Source: a virus. Taken from it: 33,995 bases of DNA. Position 1 is the stretch's first letter. The number at the start of each line of letters is the position of its first letter. Made by a program: the position numbers and the translations under genes. The stretch spans positions 1 to 33,995 of IMG/VR virus record IMGVR_UViG_3300043444_000760, one strand, 5' to 3'. The notes beneath the pieces are model-generated. The model did not search any database. It was not told the DNA's origin and saw only the letters and a program-made list of their open reading frames with translations. Below, one piece after another: positions 4,186 to 32,038 of this stretch.

Positions 4186-5055
4186 ATGAACAGATATTTT
4201 AATTTCATTGACGTTGAACAGAATACTCAAGAATGGTTGGACTTTAGAAAAAACTGTATCGGTGCTTCTGATGCTCCAATCATTATGGGTGTTTCCCCGT
4301 GGAAAACACCTTATGAGCTTTGGAAAGAGAAACGAAGCGAATCCAAGAACGAAACTAATTACGCTATGCGGCGCGGAACTGAAATGGAGCCAGAAGCCAG
4401 GGCTTACGCATCAGAGATGATAGGAGCCGATTTAAGGCCTGTTGTATGCCAGAGCACTATCTACCCATGGGCCATTGCTTCAATCGATGGTATGGACGAA
4501 GAGAACACGCTTGTCGTGGAAGTTAAATGCCCTGGTGAAATTGATCATAATATTGCACTCGGTGGTAACATCCCAGAGAAGTATTATCCCCAGATTCAAC
4601 ACCAGCTTTTTGTAACAGGTCTTCCTATGGCACTCTATTTTTCATATGATGGGGATGAAGGATGCCTTGTACGTGTTGATAGGAATGATGACTACATCAA
4701 AAAAATGATGATAAAAGAAGAAGAATTCTTCAATTCAATGCTTTCTGGAAATGCACCTGATATGACAGAAAAAGATTATGTTGAAAAAGGAGACGAAGAA
4801 TGGTTCGCATTGTCTACATCATTGATAAGCCTGAAGAATCAAATAAAATTGCTTCAGGAAAGGGAAGAGATCGTGCGAAGCCATCTCATCGATCTTGCAG
4901 GTGGTTTCAATTGCAGGGGAGCTGGAATAACAATGACATCGTACATCCGAAAAGGGAATATCGATTACTCAAAGATCCCACAGATCAAAGAGATTGATCT
5001 CGATCAGTATCGAAAACCGGATACTAAGACTTGGCGGATCTCTTACGAGGTTTAG
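4186..5055 (+). CDS. YqaJ-type viral recombinase exonuclease
   Basis: This 289-residue protein carries the lambda-exonuclease/YqaJ fold motifs in order: IGASDA (25-30), EMEPEAR (66-72), Asp101 in SIDGMD, the catalytic EVK (112-114), and QIQHQL (136-141). These make the two-metal nuclease core that resects double-strand ends 5' to 3' and leaves 3' tails for the ERF annealing protein. The C-terminal ~100 residues include a helical segment (LKNQIKLLQEREEIVRSHLI) and a beta-rich tail. It is the last gene of the forward recombination operon and starts one base after the P63C stop. Confidence 0.92.
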   Translation: MNRYFNFIDVEQNTQEWLDFRKNCIGASDAPIIMGVSPWKTPYELWKEKRSESKNETNYAMRRGTEMEPEARAYASEMIGADLRPVVCQSTIYPWAIASIDGMDEENTLVVEVKCPGEIDHNIALGGNIPEKYYPQIQHQLFVTGLPMALYFSYDGDEGCLVRVDRNDDYIKKMMIKEEEFFNSMLSGNAPDMTEKDYVEKGDEEWFALSTSLISLKNQIKLLQEREEIVRSHLIDLAGGFNCRGAGITMTSYIRKGNIDYSKIPQIKEIDLDQYRKPDTKTWRISYEV

Positions 5056-27489: not shown

Positions 27490-27512
27490 AAAACCGTCCC
27501 CTGGCATGCCGA

Positions 27513-27716
27513 TCAATATAAATCATTACAGGGGAAACCATTGTAATAACATCCCTCTATGATTTTCTCATCTTTCACTCTCCAAACCTGCTTCAAATAA
27601 CTACATTCTTCACAAAATCCCTGAGGAGGAGGGGAATAGCAATTGAATGGTTTACATAGACTCAGGGATTTTATACATTCTTCACAAAGTAAAAGCGTTT
27701 TACATTCGTCTTGCAT
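27513..27716 (-). CDS. Small Cys-rich protein
   Basis: The start is ATG 27716, four bases after GGAGG, giving 67 residues. Cys pairs in CEEC, CKPFNC, FCEEC and YNGFPC suggest zinc binding. Starting further upstream at 27788 would read inside the terminase end. It overlaps the terminase stop by 17 bases. Role unknown. Confidence 0.55.
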   Translation of the reverse strand: MQDECKTLLLCEECIKSLSLCKPFNCYSPPPQGFCEECSYLKQVWRVKDEKIIEGCYYNGFPCNDLY

Positions 27717-29487
27717 GCTGCCTCCATAATGAATCGGCTTCTGTTTGTGTGATTGTCTGTGTTTCATTAGCACAAAAGTCAATGCCACAACAGAGATAGC
27801 GAAGGGCGTCTGAATTGCTTACTAAAAAATTATTTGCATAATAACAGTGATCATCCTCTATCTCTAGATCGTAAGTTTCGTGATATTCTAGATTTTTCGA
27901 TTCCGCATTCTTTAGAACAAGTTTTCTGTAATGCGTATTTATTGATGATATATTTTTTTGAGCATATTCTACATTCTCTTTCTTCTGAATCGATCCCAGA
28001 TTTATATCTTGATCTTGTTTTACACTTATTTGAGCAGTATTTTTGATGGTAGACAGTTCCGATATATTTTTTTTCGCATTGTTCACAAATTTTTGGTAAT
28101 TTATTTTTTCCAAAATTTGTTTTTTTTGCATGTTCTCTATGCCATTCAATTCCCTCATCGCTAGAATGCCATTTTTTGGCATATTGCATGGCAATAAGAA
28201 TTGATTTTCTAGATATATCTTTTTTTTCGTTAGATCTACTATGAAGTTTTGAATGTTCTGAAGCAGATATAAGCTCAAGATTTTCCATTGAATTATTTTT
28301 TCCATTACCATCTTTATGGTGTATATGGAAATTTTTTGGTATTTCTCCTTTGTTTTTTGTCCAAATTGCTCGATGAAGCGCTGAAAAAGGCCTAGATTTT
28401 GTAGTGGTTGTTCTATAATATTTTCCATCCCATCGATATTTATATCCATCGTATATAATTGATTTTTCATCATCTGATATAAGAAATTCTCCTTGAATCC
28501 TATATTTTGTATCGATGATTTTAATCCAAATAATTTCTTGCATAAATTTAAATCCTCTAAACGATATGGTGTTATATCATACCGCAGGGAATCTGCACAT
28601 ATCAACCCTTTGTTAGTAAAAAACTCATGCTCTGGAGTACATATAACACAGTCATTTTTATATCTTACCTCTTTCAAAAAACATGATTTTTTTTTATAAA
28701 TATTCTTTACTCTTCTGTTTCCATTAGGCGTTACAACATAATCTCCTTTATTTATTTCGCTAATATTTTTATTTCCATTTATTGTTAGTATTTTTGTTTT
28801 GTTTATAAAACATGCATGAGAGTGCTCATTATGATCAGGCTTTCCCGACCACATACCACGGCTTCTATCCCACATTTGGGAATAGGATTCTATGTGTTTC
28901 ACGAGCTGAAGAACTGCGTCTGTATTGCTGAAGTAGATACGAGGAAACATATTTCTAACACAATCGATTCCATCTGATATCGATAAGTTCTGAGTGAGAA
29001 TGAAATTGATACCAAGCTTTGCTGCTGTATCGATTCTGCTAATGCCTGTGCTGTATTCATGTTGTGCGATATCATGCGGCGCAAGATGTGTGCCATAAAT
29101 ATAAGGCTTATCCTTGACCATCTTAACATAATCAGCGAGTGATTTACCCGTTCCTTCGACAAAATCGATGATATGGATTTCTCTTCCTAAAATCTGAAAC
29201 ATAATAATGGAGGTGGAATCTCTGAAACCAAGGTCCCATGCTGTGTGAACCTTTGATGTTCGATCATAAGGGATGTGTATAATGCGTTTCTGTGCTCTTG
29301 CAACACTGATTTGGGAGGCGTAGTAGAGGCCGTCCATGTTGACTTCGAAAGCTTCGTCCGGTGTAGACGGGTATTCTTTTTTTACTGAATCGCCTAGCAT
29401 CTCGTATTTTTTTGTGTACCAGAGCTTTTGTCCTTCTGTGAGTTTTATCCCTTTAGATTCGATCTCTTTGAAGTATTCATCAAGCAA
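27700..29487 (-). CDS. Large terminase, nuclease part, interrupted by an intein
   Basis: This 595-residue ORF starts at TTG 29487, eight bases after AAGGA. Residues 1-225 are the start of the large-terminase nuclease domain: LTEGQKLWYTKKYEMLGDSV, KKEYPSTPDEAF, HTAWDLGF (first catalytic Asp in WDLG) and PHDIAQHEY. At SHA (223-225) an intein begins (226-558). After it the extein resumes with SDALRYLCCGID. Splicing would give SHA-SDALRYL, the conserved active-site motif, whose Asp is catalytic. The ATPase domain is encoded separately upstream (29480-30190) in another frame. The nuclease cuts concatemeric DNA during packaging. Confidence 0.85.
   Translation of the reverse strand: MLDEYFKEIESKGIKLTEGQKLWYTKKYEMLGDSVKKEYPSTPDEAFEVNMDGLYYASQISVARAQKRIIHIPYDRTSKVHTAWDLGFRDSTSIIMFQILGREIHIIDFVEGTGKSLADYVKMVKDKPYIYGTHLAPHDIAQHEYSTGISRIDTAAKLGINFILTQNLSISDGIDCVRNMFPRIYFSNTDAVLQLVKHIESYSQMWDRSRGMWSGKPDHNEHSHACFINKTKILTINGNKNISEINKGDYVVTPNGNRRVKNIYKKKSCFLKEVRYKNDCVICTPEHEFFTNKGLICADSLRYDITPYRLEDLNLCKKLFGLKSSIQNIGFKENFLYQMMKNQLYTMDINIDGMENIIEQPLQNLGLFQRFIEQFGQKTKEKYQKISIYTIKMVMEKIIQWKILSLYLLQNIQNFIVDLTKKKIYLENQFLLPCNMPKNGILAMRELNGIENMQKKQILEKINYQKFVNNAKKNISELSTIKNTAQISVKQDQDINLGSIQKKENVEYAQKNISSINTHYRKLVLKNAESKNLEYHETYDLEIEDDHCYYANNFLVSNSDALRYLCCGIDFCANETQTITQTEADSLWRQHARRM
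27814..28812 (-). other. Intein in the terminase nuclease active site
   Basis: This 333-residue in-frame insertion starts with Cys226. Block A is CFINKTKILTINGNKNISEI, followed by KGDYVV. Block B is CTPEHEFF, with Thr and His in the usual places. The C-terminal blocks are YDLEIEDDHCYYANNFLVSN and Ser as the +1 residue. The penultimate residue is Ser rather than the usual His. Between blocks B and F the frame is open for about 240 codons but has a low-complexity Lys/Asn/Ile/Gln-rich sequence. It is the shifted-frame reading of an HNH endonuclease gene. Base composition is visibly more AT-rich than the surrounding terminase. Confidence 0.88.
27851..28543 (-). CDS. HNH homing endonuclease nested in the intein in another frame
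   Basis: This 230-residue ORF lies wholly inside the intein, in a different frame from it. It starts at ATG 28543 behind AGAGG, ten bases upstream. The N-terminus has the phage HNH layout: YRWDGKYYRTTTTKSRPFSA, LHRAIW, then HIHHKDGNGKNNSMENLELI (residues 73-92), with the H-H-N metal and catalytic motif. Residues 153-174 (CEQC...CSNKC) and 191-213 (CRIC...CSKEC) form two zinc fingers, which probably bind target DNA. Such enzymes cut intein-less alleles and spread the intein. The final codons overlap intein block F. Confidence 0.85.
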   Translation of the reverse strand: MQEIIWIKIIDTKYRIQGEFLISDDEKSIIYDGYKYRWDGKYYRTTTTKSRPFSALHRAIWTKNKGEIPKNFHIHHKDGNGKNNSMENLELISASEHSKLHSRSNEKKDISRKSILIAMQYAKKWHSSDEGIEWHREHAKKTNFGKNKLPKICEQCEKKYIGTVYHQKYCSNKCKTRSRYKSGIDSEERECRICSKKYIINKYALQKTCSKECGIEKSRISRNLRSRDRG

Positions 29488-30190
29488 GAATCACATCCTT
29501 TTCGAGTGTGTACATGGGTTCTTTGTACCAAGGGAGGAAGAAAAGCTTCCAGTCCATATTTGTTAGGGGTTCTCCTTTGAGCTGTTTTTCTTGACAACGT
29601 TGGACCATTTCGAAGAATTTTCCCTCTCGTCCTTCGGCTGTGGACTCAATTGTGATGAACTGTCCGGATTGTACGGTATTGAGAGCTCCTGAGACGATCT
29701 CTTCTGCCTTTTGCGGTTGCCATCGACATATTTTCCCAAATTCCGAAACATGCAATAGTTGAAGAGTACCAGAACGCAGGCTTGTGCCAACCCGATATAC
29801 TGAACCATTTTCAAATCGCAACTCATTCGCGTTGTCTCTCCTCGCTGGGGAAATTTCTTTAATTATAGGGTGAAGGTTATCATATGCAAATTTGACTTTG
29901 TCTTGAAAGATTTCAAGGGAATTCTTTTGAATATCAGCAACGATTGCAGCATTGATGTTACAATTCCACAGGCACATATCAAGAAAATATATAGCAAATA
30001 GAGTGGTAATACCAAGCTGACGAGCTTTAAGAATGATATTGAAGTAGTGAAGATTCTCGAGAATCTCTTTCTGGGCCCAATTAGGTTCAAATTTAACCTT
30101 CTGCCCTTTCTTGTTCTTGATCCAATAGAGGTTGTGCAATCTCCAATTTCGGTTCAAAAGTTTGATCTTCTGGTCTGAAGAAAGGATCAT
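29480..30190 (-). CDS. Large terminase, ATPase part
   Basis: This gives 236 residues from ATG 30190; an ATG at 30253 in frame is an alternative and neither has a clear ribosome-binding site. NLYWIKNKKGQKVKFEPNWA leads into the ATPase domain of P22-like large terminases: the degenerate Walker A KARQLGITT (55-63), Walker B LLHVSEFGK (145-153) and motif III ITIESTAEG (179-187). It ends FFLPWYKEPMYTLEKDVILA, then TGA. The continuation LDEYFKEIESKGIKL lies in the +1 frame of the next ORF, overlapping by 8 bases. So ATPase and nuclease are encoded as two ORFs. It overlaps the small terminase gene by ~98 bases. Confidence 0.85.
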   Translation of the reverse strand: MILSSDQKIKLLNRNWRLHNLYWIKNKKGQKVKFEPNWAQKEILENLHYFNIILKARQLGITTLFAIYFLDMCLWNCNINAAIVADIQKNSLEIFQDKVKFAYDNLHPIIKEISPARRDNANELRFENGSVYRVGTSLRSGTLQLLHVSEFGKICRWQPQKAEEIVSGALNTVQSGQFITIESTAEGREGKFFEMVQRCQEKQLKGEPLTNMDWKLFFLPWYKEPMYTLEKDVILA

Positions 30191-30698
30191 ATGCGAGAGG
30201 ATTTCGAGTGTTATCAAAAAGTTCTTTAAAAGAATTGATGTCGATCTTAACATCTGGAAGTTTATCGGGATCTTTTTGAGATAACCAGATTTTACCTAGC
30301 CAAATACCCATTGCCGCATTTCTTTCTGACATTTTTAATTGATTTAAACGCAATTTAATTTTTGCCGCACCAGAACTTCTATTTTTAAGTTCCTCAAATC
30401 CTATACCATATTTCTCTTTAATTCTTCTGTTTAATGTATCAACTGAAACATAAAAAGATCCTGCTATTTCTTCGCATGTTGCACCGATATCAATCCAATA
30501 ACGAATTTGATCAAAGTTTATTTCTTTTGCTGGAAGTCGGTCATCACATGGCACGACCATAGGAATCTTTCTTCTTCCTCTTTTTCTTGTGCCTACTAAA
30601 GGATCTTTACTTTTTCGAATTCTTTTAGGGGGAGGAGGGCGAACTTCACCTTTCTTTGGTCTTCCACGCTTATGTTTTATGGGAACTTCTTCGGTCAT
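30093..30698 (-). CDS. Small terminase-like DNA-binding protein
   Basis: This 201-residue protein starts at ATG 30698, overlapping the methyltransferase stop as ATGA. A basic, Pro-rich N-terminus (KHKRGRPKKGEVRPPPPKRI) contains an AT-hook-like RGRPKK. It is followed by a helix-turn-helix (IRYWIDIGATCEEIAGSFYV, SVDTLNRRIKEKYGIGFEEL). The C-terminal part is helical, ending EPKLEIAQPLLDQEQERAEG. Small terminases recognise the packaging site and hand the DNA to the large subunit. The position directly before the ATPase ORF supports this role. Confidence 0.75.
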   Translation of the reverse strand: MTEEVPIKHKRGRPKKGEVRPPPPKRIRKSKDPLVGTRKRGRRKIPMVVPCDDRLPAKEINFDQIRYWIDIGATCEEIAGSFYVSVDTLNRRIKEKYGIGFEELKNRSSGAAKIKLRLNQLKMSERNAAMGIWLGKIWLSQKDPDKLPDVKIDINSFKELFDNTRNPLAYDPFFRPEDQTFEPKLEIAQPLLDQEQERAEG

Positions 30699-31927
30699 TC
30701 TGCTTCACCATTTCTTGTGATAGAATACTCTCTATTGTTTTTGATCATGAAGTTTTTCCAACGATTGATAATTACATCGCAATATGCGGGTGAAAATTCT
30801 ATTCCATAACAGATACGATCTGTTTTTTCTGCTGCGATGAGTGTCGTTCCAGATCCGAGAAATGGATCGTAGACTCCCTGGCCTTCTTCTGTATTGTTTC
30901 TGATTGGGCGTTCCATACACTCGATAGGCTTTTGTGTAGAGTGGGATGTTCTTTCATCTTCGTTTTGAGATTTACCGAAACAGTTGAGGTTCCCGATTTC
31001 CCACAGAGTGCTTTCTTTTCTTGATCCCTGCCAATTGTGTTTACATCCTTTTTTAGCTGCATACCAGCATGGCTCGTGCTGCCAATGATAATCGCCACGC
31101 GATAGAGCGAAATGCTGTTTCGACCAGATGATTTGTGAGATTATTTCAAATTCTGCTTCTTCAAGACTTTTTTGAACTTCGGAACAGTATTTTCCAGCAT
31201 GCCACACATACGCGACTGATCCTGGGAAAAGATGCCATGCCAGAGCCCAGTTTACTTTGTCATCATTTTGTACAACACCATTGGCTTTTTGCCCTTTTCC
31301 TGCCGCTCCTCTCCAAGACGGATCATAGTTCACTCCATAGGGAGGATCTGTCACCATTAGTATCGGTTCGGCACCGTCAAGACATTGAGAAACTGTATCG
31401 GGTAGGGTTGAATCGCCGCATACTAATCGATGATTGTTAAGAATGATAACATCACCAAGTTTGGTGATTGCATCTTTATCATCGCATGGAGAGAGAGTGC
31501 CATCATCTTCATCTTCTGTAGGCTCAACCTGAGTAACATCATCTGGATAGAAAAGATCCTTTTCCATCATACCCATATCGAGAAGTTCTGATGGATCGTA
31601 TTCATTGGCCAGAATATCCCAATCGAATTCCCCGTGATGGATATTATCTTGCACCATACGAGTTCGGATCTGTTCTTCTGTCGCTGTCGTGATGATACAT
31701 GGGACAGTTTCCCATTTTAGATGCTTGGCGGCTCTGTAACGTTGATTTCCAGCATAGATGAGGTATTTATCGCCAATTGCTTTTACAAGGCATGGGCGGC
31801 ATGTAAAGAATCCAGGATCTTCGCTGATGGATTTAACAAGTTTGTTGAATTGATTTTTATCGATCTTACGAGGGTTTTTCTCATAAGGTTCAAGGAGTTT
31901 GATATTGATATCTGTAATCTTTGACAT
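30695..31927 (-). CDS. ParB-like/DNA methyltransferase fusion protein
   Basis: The start is ATG 31927 with GAGG just upstream, giving 410 residues; 31 extra N-terminal codons in the frame are not needed. Residues 1-130 are a ParB/sulfiredoxin-like domain with GNQRYRAAKHL (60-70). Residues 180-400 form the methyltransferase, with the catalytic DPPY (194-197, TDPPYGV), a central HEPCWYAAKKG region and the AdoMet-binding DPFLGSGTT (354-362). Motif order (DPPY before FxGxG) puts it in the beta class, probably N6-adenine or N4-cytosine. Such fusions in phages likely protect DNA from host restriction. It precedes the small terminase by overlap. Confidence 0.85.
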   Translation of the reverse strand: MSKITDINIKLLEPYEKNPRKIDKNQFNKLVKSISEDPGFFTCRPCLVKAIGDKYLIYAGNQRYRAAKHLKWETVPCIITTATEEQIRTRMVQDNIHHGEFDWDILANEYDPSELLDMGMMEKDLFYPDDVTQVEPTEDEDDGTLSPCDDKDAITKLGDVIILNNHRLVCGDSTLPDTVSQCLDGAEPILMVTDPPYGVNYDPSWRGAAGKGQKANGVVQNDDKVNWALAWHLFPGSVAYVWHAGKYCSEVQKSLEEAEFEIISQIIWSKQHFALSRGDYHWQHEPCWYAAKKGCKHNWQGSRKESTLWEIGNLNCFGKSQNEDERTSHSTQKPIECMERPIRNNTEEGQGVYDPFLGSGTTLIAAEKTDRICYGIEFSPAYCDVIINRWKNFMIKNNREYSITRNGEAE

Positions 31928-32038
31928 AGCACCTCTTTTTTTCAAATTAAAATATTCTTGAATTGCAATCAATATTTTATGTTTGTCGCCGTGGTTTTTT
32001 GTGTTATAATTATGGCACATAACTGGAAGGTTTCATAC
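31928..32038. promoter_or_regulatory. Divergent promoter region, methyltransferase and forward small genes
   Basis: Forward: TTGTCG (31983-31988), 16 bp, TATAAT (32005-32010), then GGAAGG (32025-32030) before ATG 32039. Reverse: TTGATT and TAATTT with 17 bp could serve the methyltransferase operon. AAAATATT (31949-31956) and AATATTTT (31971-31978) make an inverted repeat, with palindrome ATTGCAAT (31962-31969) between them; this could be an operator. The assignment is by eye. Confidence 0.5.

Follow-up and report, generated by a model that had tools for sequence, protein, structure and literature searches.

The window analysed here, a viral contig of 33,995 bp from IMG/VR, carried on its minus strand a gene for the large terminase subunit (TerL) that was interrupted by an insert of 999 bp, directly 5' of the nuclease motif S-D-A-L-R-Y. 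The features of the terminase gene and of the insert were as follows:

27700-29487, minus strand: C-terminal part of the TerL ORF, interrupted by the intein (phrog_2472, E 3e-47; aligned to TerL of Pseudomonas phage PS-1 with the intein removed)
27814-28812, minus strand: intein of 333 codons, from Cys1 to Asn333 and followed by Ser+1 (Intein_splicing, E 1e-5; contiguous empty site in comparison with PS-1)
28546-28812, minus strand: N-terminal Hint splicing half, residues ~1-89 (TIGR01445, E 2e-4; pLDDT mostly >90)
28627-28638, minus strand: intein block B, T-P-E-H, residues T59-H62 (T59 and H62 invariant in 44 relatives)
27814-27882, minus strand: C-terminal Hint splicing half with blocks F and G, residues ~311-333 (TIGR01443 above its curated cut-off; pLDDT ~95)
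27796-27813, minus strand: first residues of the C-extein, S-D-A-L-R-Y, the nuclease motif of TerL into which the intein is inserted (PS-1, with an empty site, has H-G-S-D-A-F-R-Y)
29480-30253, minus strand: N-terminal part of TerL, in a frame different from that of the C-terminal part (alignment to PS-1)

The terminase-frame ORF (27700-29487) was stop-free across the whole insert (27814-28812), as the sequence-only reading had stated for this 999-bp intein, and it bore the marks of an intein: C-F-I-N at the start, T-P-E-H in block B, Y-D-L...A-N-N-F-L-V-S-N at the end and a serine at position +1. Blocks A and B with Cys1 and T-x-x-H, and blocks F and G with the terminal Asn, were all present in a frame open with that of the host gene; the insert was matched by Pfam Intein_splicing (E 1e-5) and by NCBIfam intein_Cterm (above its curated cut-off). 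Residues C1, T59, H62 and N333 were invariant in an alignment of 44 intein relatives, of which 42 matched Intein_splicing. Once the insert was removed the host protein was contiguous, and aligned without gaps to PS-1 TerL across H-A/S-D-A-L-R-Y (H-G-S-D-A-F-R-Y in PS-1; the slash marks the insertion point). The intein frame being continuous, the window did not hold a fractured split intein. A group I or group II intron was rejected as an explanation for want of any Rfam match in the insert region; between positions 27500 and 30500 no known RNA family was found at E values up to 1. Upstream of the intein, near 29,480-29,510, the TerL gene contained a frameshift which did not affect the intein or the endonuclease gene within it: the alignment to PS-1 TerL (one ORF) stopped at residue 227 and restarted at residue 236 in the other frame. 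This frameshift may be a real mutation or a sequencing error, and the terminase copy of the window may be non-functional or mis-sequenced.

A second ORF, complete and in a frame other than that of the intein, lay within the insert:

27851-28543, minus strand: HNH homing endonuclease ORF of 230 aa, in the -1 frame relative to the intein, the intein frame being HNH+1 (HNH_3, E 3e-15; phrog_15471, E 1e-36; model pLDDT 92.5)
28250-28381, minus strand: HNH_3 catalytic domain, HNH residues 55-98 (Pfam; invariant residues in 53 relatives)
28022-28087, minus strand: first zinc-finger-like unit, C153, C156, C170 and C174 of the HNH (four cysteines invariant in 53 relatives)
27905-27973, minus strand: second zinc-finger-like unit, C191, C194, C209 and C213 of the HNH (sequence and alignment)
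28554-28558, minus strand: AGAGG, possible ribosome-binding site of the HNH ORF (sequence; Shine-Dalgarno (SD) enrichment in the family)
27851-27876, minus strand: last codons of the HNH ORF, shared with block F of the intein, Y-D-L-E-I-E-D-D (sequence; stop positions in the family)

A 230-residue HNH with its own ATG and an AGAGG site had been proposed at this place, and both signals were found: the ORF ran from 28543 to 27851 on the minus strand with an ATG and a TGA, and AGAGG lay at 28558-28554, 10 nt from the ATG, which is a long spacing. The profile searches suggested earlier as a check were positive for each part (HNH_3 at E 3e-15 for the endonuclease, and the Intein_splicing and intein_Cterm matches given above for the intein). 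Residues H75, H76, D78, N83, N84, N88 and H97 were invariant in 53 HNH relatives, and the protein had two C4 zinc-finger-like units. The HNH_3 match, the catalytic residues (invariant H75, H76, N84 and H97) and the DNA-binding elements (four invariant Cys) mark it as a putative HNH homing endonuclease, encoded outside the intein frame and not as a canonical in-frame endonuclease. In a 342-aa ORF elsewhere in the family (L130:237-1262), several C4 zinc-finger units were repeated one after another downstream of the HNH endonuclease. The stop codon of the window HNH was located 12 residues ahead of the terminal Asn of the intein, so that its last codons overlapped block F, in agreement with the sequence-only reading. 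Of 81 overlap loci, 66 had the HNH stop inside blocks F and G, among the final 22 residues of the intein, most commonly 18.3 residues from the intein end. To judge by this position, the commonest stop probably corresponds to the conserved Tyr-Asp or Tyr-Asn codons of block F (TAT-GAY, TAT-AAY), which in the HNH frame would give TGA or TAA.

In the structure predicted for the intein frame, residues 1-90 and 311-333 were modelled with high confidence and the overlapped residues between them with low confidence. The top Foldseek match of this model was the gp41-1 intein (E 9e-7), the closest solved inteins being gp41-1 and others including NrdJ-1. The HNH encoded by the same DNA was modelled with a pLDDT of 92.5; its profile matched I-HmuI (PDB 1U3E) alone among solved structures, and Foldseek gave only a weak match of the model to I-HmuI (E 0.06). 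I-HmuI is the solved relative of the HNH profile, but it is an intron-encoded homing endonuclease, and no RNA family was detected in the window region searched.

An out-of-frame HNH insertion lacking a splicing domain has been described in a phage methylase as the ShiLan domain (2025, PMC11855218). It resembles the present locus in that an HNH/zinc-finger endonuclease is encoded in another frame, the host frame is open and homing is inferred; its HNH occupies the third frame of the host gene, a register which, by description, matches the main one observed here (PMC11855218). It differs in its host gene, in the lack of a splicing domain and in that the insert is thought to be retained (PMC11855218), whereas the window contained the out-of-frame HNH together with a recognisable intein. 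The ShiLan precedent gives some ground for supposing that the insert of the window is never spliced either and remains in the terminase, which we regard as very unlikely: the Hint blocks, Cys1, T-x-x-H, the terminal Asn and Cys/Ser+1 were nearly invariant, and both Hint halves were modelled confidently. TerL, in addition, is normally essential.

Single-sequence scans of viral contigs with the window HNH and the window terminase as queries gave no close relatives. An alignment of HNH homologues was used as query against viral contigs and prokaryote genomes, and every forward frame was then searched, across any stops, for the N and C blocks of an intein. Where an HNH was flanked by intein blocks on one open frame, this frame was HNH+1 in 77 loci, HNH+2 in 5 and that of the HNH itself in none. 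A second scan, with the intein C-terminus/TerL junction as query and no HNH criterion, found the HNH at +1 in 74 of 80 loci, in frame in none, and no HNH in 6; seeded only from overlap-type inteins, it was biased towards this intein clade. Taken over both scans, which shared a few contigs, the arrangement was present in ~150 viral and microbial loci, many of them related. The alternate-frame endonuclease in a terminase intein was borne out by these counts, neither scan having yielded an in-frame homologue of the kind that would have told against it; it was real but not a unique case, the window being one member of a large family. Overlap loci occurred in many phages, and also in bins of bacteria and archaea; among the sources were Tetrasphaera phage TJE1, Acinetobacter phage Highwayman and Rhodobacteraceae phage MD07, whose loci were annotated only as terminase, as well as the fecal-sample contig MT838676.

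The same survey bears on the possibility that sequencing or assembly frameshifts had broken an ordinary intein with an in-frame HNH. The window contig does have a frameshift elsewhere in its terminase, and an in-frame HNH_3 intein is known: phage vB_AphaS-CL131 has in its dCTP deaminase a canonical HNH intein, for which self-excision was shown (PMC6293099). That intein is similar to the present one in its combination of a Hint domain with HNH_3 (PMC6293099), and we checked that its HNH_3 lies in the intein frame, unlike the window HNH. Against an artefact, however, stood ~150 loci in which the blocks flanking the HNH were intact and the HNH was never in frame, those in the genomes of the isolates TJE1 and Highwayman among them, together with a codon footprint and an avoidance of stops (see below) that require long-term selection on both frames. 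This explanation was refuted by the family data and is left with almost no probability.

Most of the 82 overlap inteins used one of three neighbouring insertion points within the TerL nuclease motif H-x-x-D-A-x-R-Y, and Cys1, the terminal Asn and Cys/Ser at +1 were each present in 81 of the 82. Insertion at the most conserved TerL motif, combined with a patchy distribution, is suggestive of homing. Some overlap-type inteins were located outside the TerL nuclease motif (L120, L086, L092, L077 and L131), some of them in apparent Walker-B or other segments.

Around 19 loci were split: an ORF for TerL-N and IntN ended at a stop and was followed by a free HNH ORF and then by an ORF for IntC and TerL-C. 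A free ORF of this HNH family separated the two halves of a TerL intein in L028, L035, L122, L006 (Lactobacillus phage CL2), L160 (Vibrio phage 1.238.A) and others; the pieces in CL2 and Vibrio phage 1.238.A were annotated separately as terminase, HNH or hedgehog/hint, the Vibrio case being judged from its annotation. The connection to fractured split-intein loci drawn from the sequence alone was well founded in this respect. Fractured genes, as cited in PMC10448857 (Dassa et al. 2009), combine split inteins with a free-standing endonuclease. On that description, their endonuclease is a separate gene between intein halves, an arrangement in which the HNH family studied here also occurs in TerL, whereas the inteins of the overlap loci are undivided and share their coding DNA with the endonuclease gene. 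In the remaining HNH genes an intein was not detected, and several of these free-standing genes adjoined an intein-less TerL.

The arrangements were clustered on the HNH tree (22 changes vs. 43.5 when shuffled), and the HNH+2 register formed one clade (L069, L073, L075, L076 and L094). The window HNH grouped with L105 and L115; the nearest HNH found was 45% identical to it, and no very close relative appeared in the scans. Cophylogeny between HNH and intein blocks was moderate (Mantel r 0.30, P 0.001), with the same nearest neighbour in 18 of 77 loci, a result compatible with exchange of the HNH between inteins.

With respect to the way in which the HNH is translated, SD matches of at least 5 nt were found ahead of 35% of the intein-internal HNH starts, vs. 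6% of matched windows. A -1 programmed ribosomal frameshift, producing a TerL-IntN-HNH fusion in place of a protein with its own start, would suit the main register, where the HNH is read at -1 relative to the intein, and slippery-type heptamers were most numerous in the right phase (20, vs. 17 and 7 in the other phases). These heptamers were, however, scarcely enriched over the second phase, SD-like sites were enriched ahead of the internal starts, the +2-register clade would require the opposite shift, and the split loci encoded the same HNH as a separate ORF; frameshifting appears improbable as the route.

The absence of stops from the intein frame was compared with chance expectation. When the HNH protein and its codon usage were fixed and synonymous codons were shuffled, the intein frame contained a mean of 5.5 stops and was free of them once in 20,000 shuffles (P about 5e-5 for the openness of both frames); a null model based on base composition gave 8.2 stops and never zero in 5,000 trials. 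The earlier claim of an overlap open beyond chance was upheld, and its figure of about 11 expected stops was somewhat high. An alternative would be coincidence, in that the +1 frame frequently happens to be stop-free in HNH genes that are AT-rich and Lys-rich, and fewer stops were indeed expected in the +1 frame than in the +2 frame (5.4 vs. 17), which may explain the predominance of +1. Control homologues (free-standing or between split inteins), however, had 1-13 stops in +1, and no free-standing homologues were found with an equally open +1 frame at the same rate. In control loci without an open intein frame the ratio of observed to expected +1 stops was 0.85, compared with none observed in overlap loci, and zero stops went with flanking intein blocks even at 60-69% G+C. 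Given these controls, the shuffle null and the avoidance of stop-making silent changes described next, coincidence was rejected and can scarcely be credited.

Substitution rates were obtained from 12 disjoint close pairs of overlap loci. Changes synonymous in the HNH and nonsynonymous in the intein occurred at 0.042 per opportunity, and HNH-nonsynonymous changes at 0.0043-0.0047, irrespective of whether they were silent in the intein frame; these rates amount to ~10-fold purifying selection on the HNH and leave the overlapped residues of the intein practically unconstrained. HNH-silent changes creating a stop in the intein frame were not observed at all (0 vs. 5.5 expected, P 0.004), while in control loci stop-making silent changes occurred at the normal silent rate (0.042) with no avoidance. 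A corresponding footprint was present in codon usage: Leu, Ile and Val codons ending in TA accounted for 13% in overlap loci vs. 31% in controls, and Met followed by a codon beginning with A was found in 0 of 140 cases vs. 38 of 115. Among more divergent sequences the HNH frame had the same position-specific pattern as control genes, and conservation of the overlapped intein-frame residues was negligible (identity 0.260 vs. 0.251 in a dummy frame). In these comparisons the overlap is asymmetric, the HNH being kept for its amino acids and the intein frame kept merely stop-free, and joint constraint on the same bases by the two proteins is largely limited to the vicinity of block F. The dual coding proposed from the sequence is to be refined in that, across most of the overlap, amino-acid selection acts on the HNH only; the proposed comparison of substitutions in both frames found constraint in the HNH frame and, in the overlapped intein, nothing beyond the avoidance of stops.

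The HNH was also lost with the intein frame maintained. In L232 and L239, in comparison with L229 and L230 (inteins with HNH), an in-frame deletion of 522 bp (174 codons) between 8-bp repeats had removed the HNH and left a mini-intein, in frame and of 137 residues in the measured span, the flanks of the contigs being ~98.7% identical. In L084 the HNH frame had two stops and the intein frame was intact. Loss of the HNH with retention of the intein frame fits a requirement for splicing and an expendable HNH.

Taken together, the locus is very probably a selfish, cis-splicing TerL intein that homes by means of a separately translated, internally started HNH in the overlapping -1 frame. From the sequences we infer splicing, HNH translation, cutting and homing as follows. 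The terminase mRNA would be read in the host frame straight through the insert, and the two Hint halves (residues 1 to ~90 and ~311 to 333) would fold together across a long, probably unstructured linker. Excision by the standard Cys1/Asn/Ser(+1) route would then give an uninterrupted TerL nuclease motif. The linker DNA would also be read in the -1 frame, from the intein-internal start, to give a separate HNH/zinc-finger homing endonuclease, which may cut intein-less TerL genes of co-infecting phages and cause the whole intein to be copied in.

The usual picture of an intein is that of a splicing domain with the endonuclease in the same frame; in this intein clade a separate, overlapping endonuclease gene appears to be the rule and not the exception. 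A bioRxiv preprint by Gosselin et al. (2025, 10.1101/2025.01.02.630785) reportedly deals with actinobacteriophage inteins of 'non-canonical architecture', and may describe the same one. It is cited in PMC11855218 for overlapping reading frames in actinobacteriophages, and, as far as that citation goes, its subject is these phages, whereas the loci analysed here are spread over many phages and also over prokaryotic bins, both bacterial and archaeal. The present arrangement combines features of the known ones, as a cis-intein with a separately encoded, overlapping endonuclease. We are inclined to think, with some reservation, that the TerL inteins of uncultivated viruses usually carry an out-of-frame HNH, as an old overlapping pair in which the expendable linker is a second gene and is selected for stop avoidance only. 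If so, split, full and mini-inteins would have a natural way of passing into one another; a single HNH family links inteins that are intact, split or reduced to mini-inteins with endonucleases that stand free. The locus offers a clean case of same-strand overlap under asymmetric selection, for amino acids in one frame and for mere openness in the other, and the single 'terminase' label in TJE1, Highwayman and MD07 indicates that annotation pipelines hide it. A stop-free linker of ~200 residues that evolves almost freely suggests tolerance of insertions and splitting, which bears on split-intein engineering.

Other features were noted elsewhere in the window. A ParB-like domain fused to a DNA methyltransferase (phrog_498, E 1e-113) was encoded at 30695-32020 on the minus strand, just upstream of the probable terminase small subunit, and an Erf-like single-strand annealing protein and a RecE-like exonuclease (2111-2701 and 4186-5055, plus strand) constituted a phage recombination pair.
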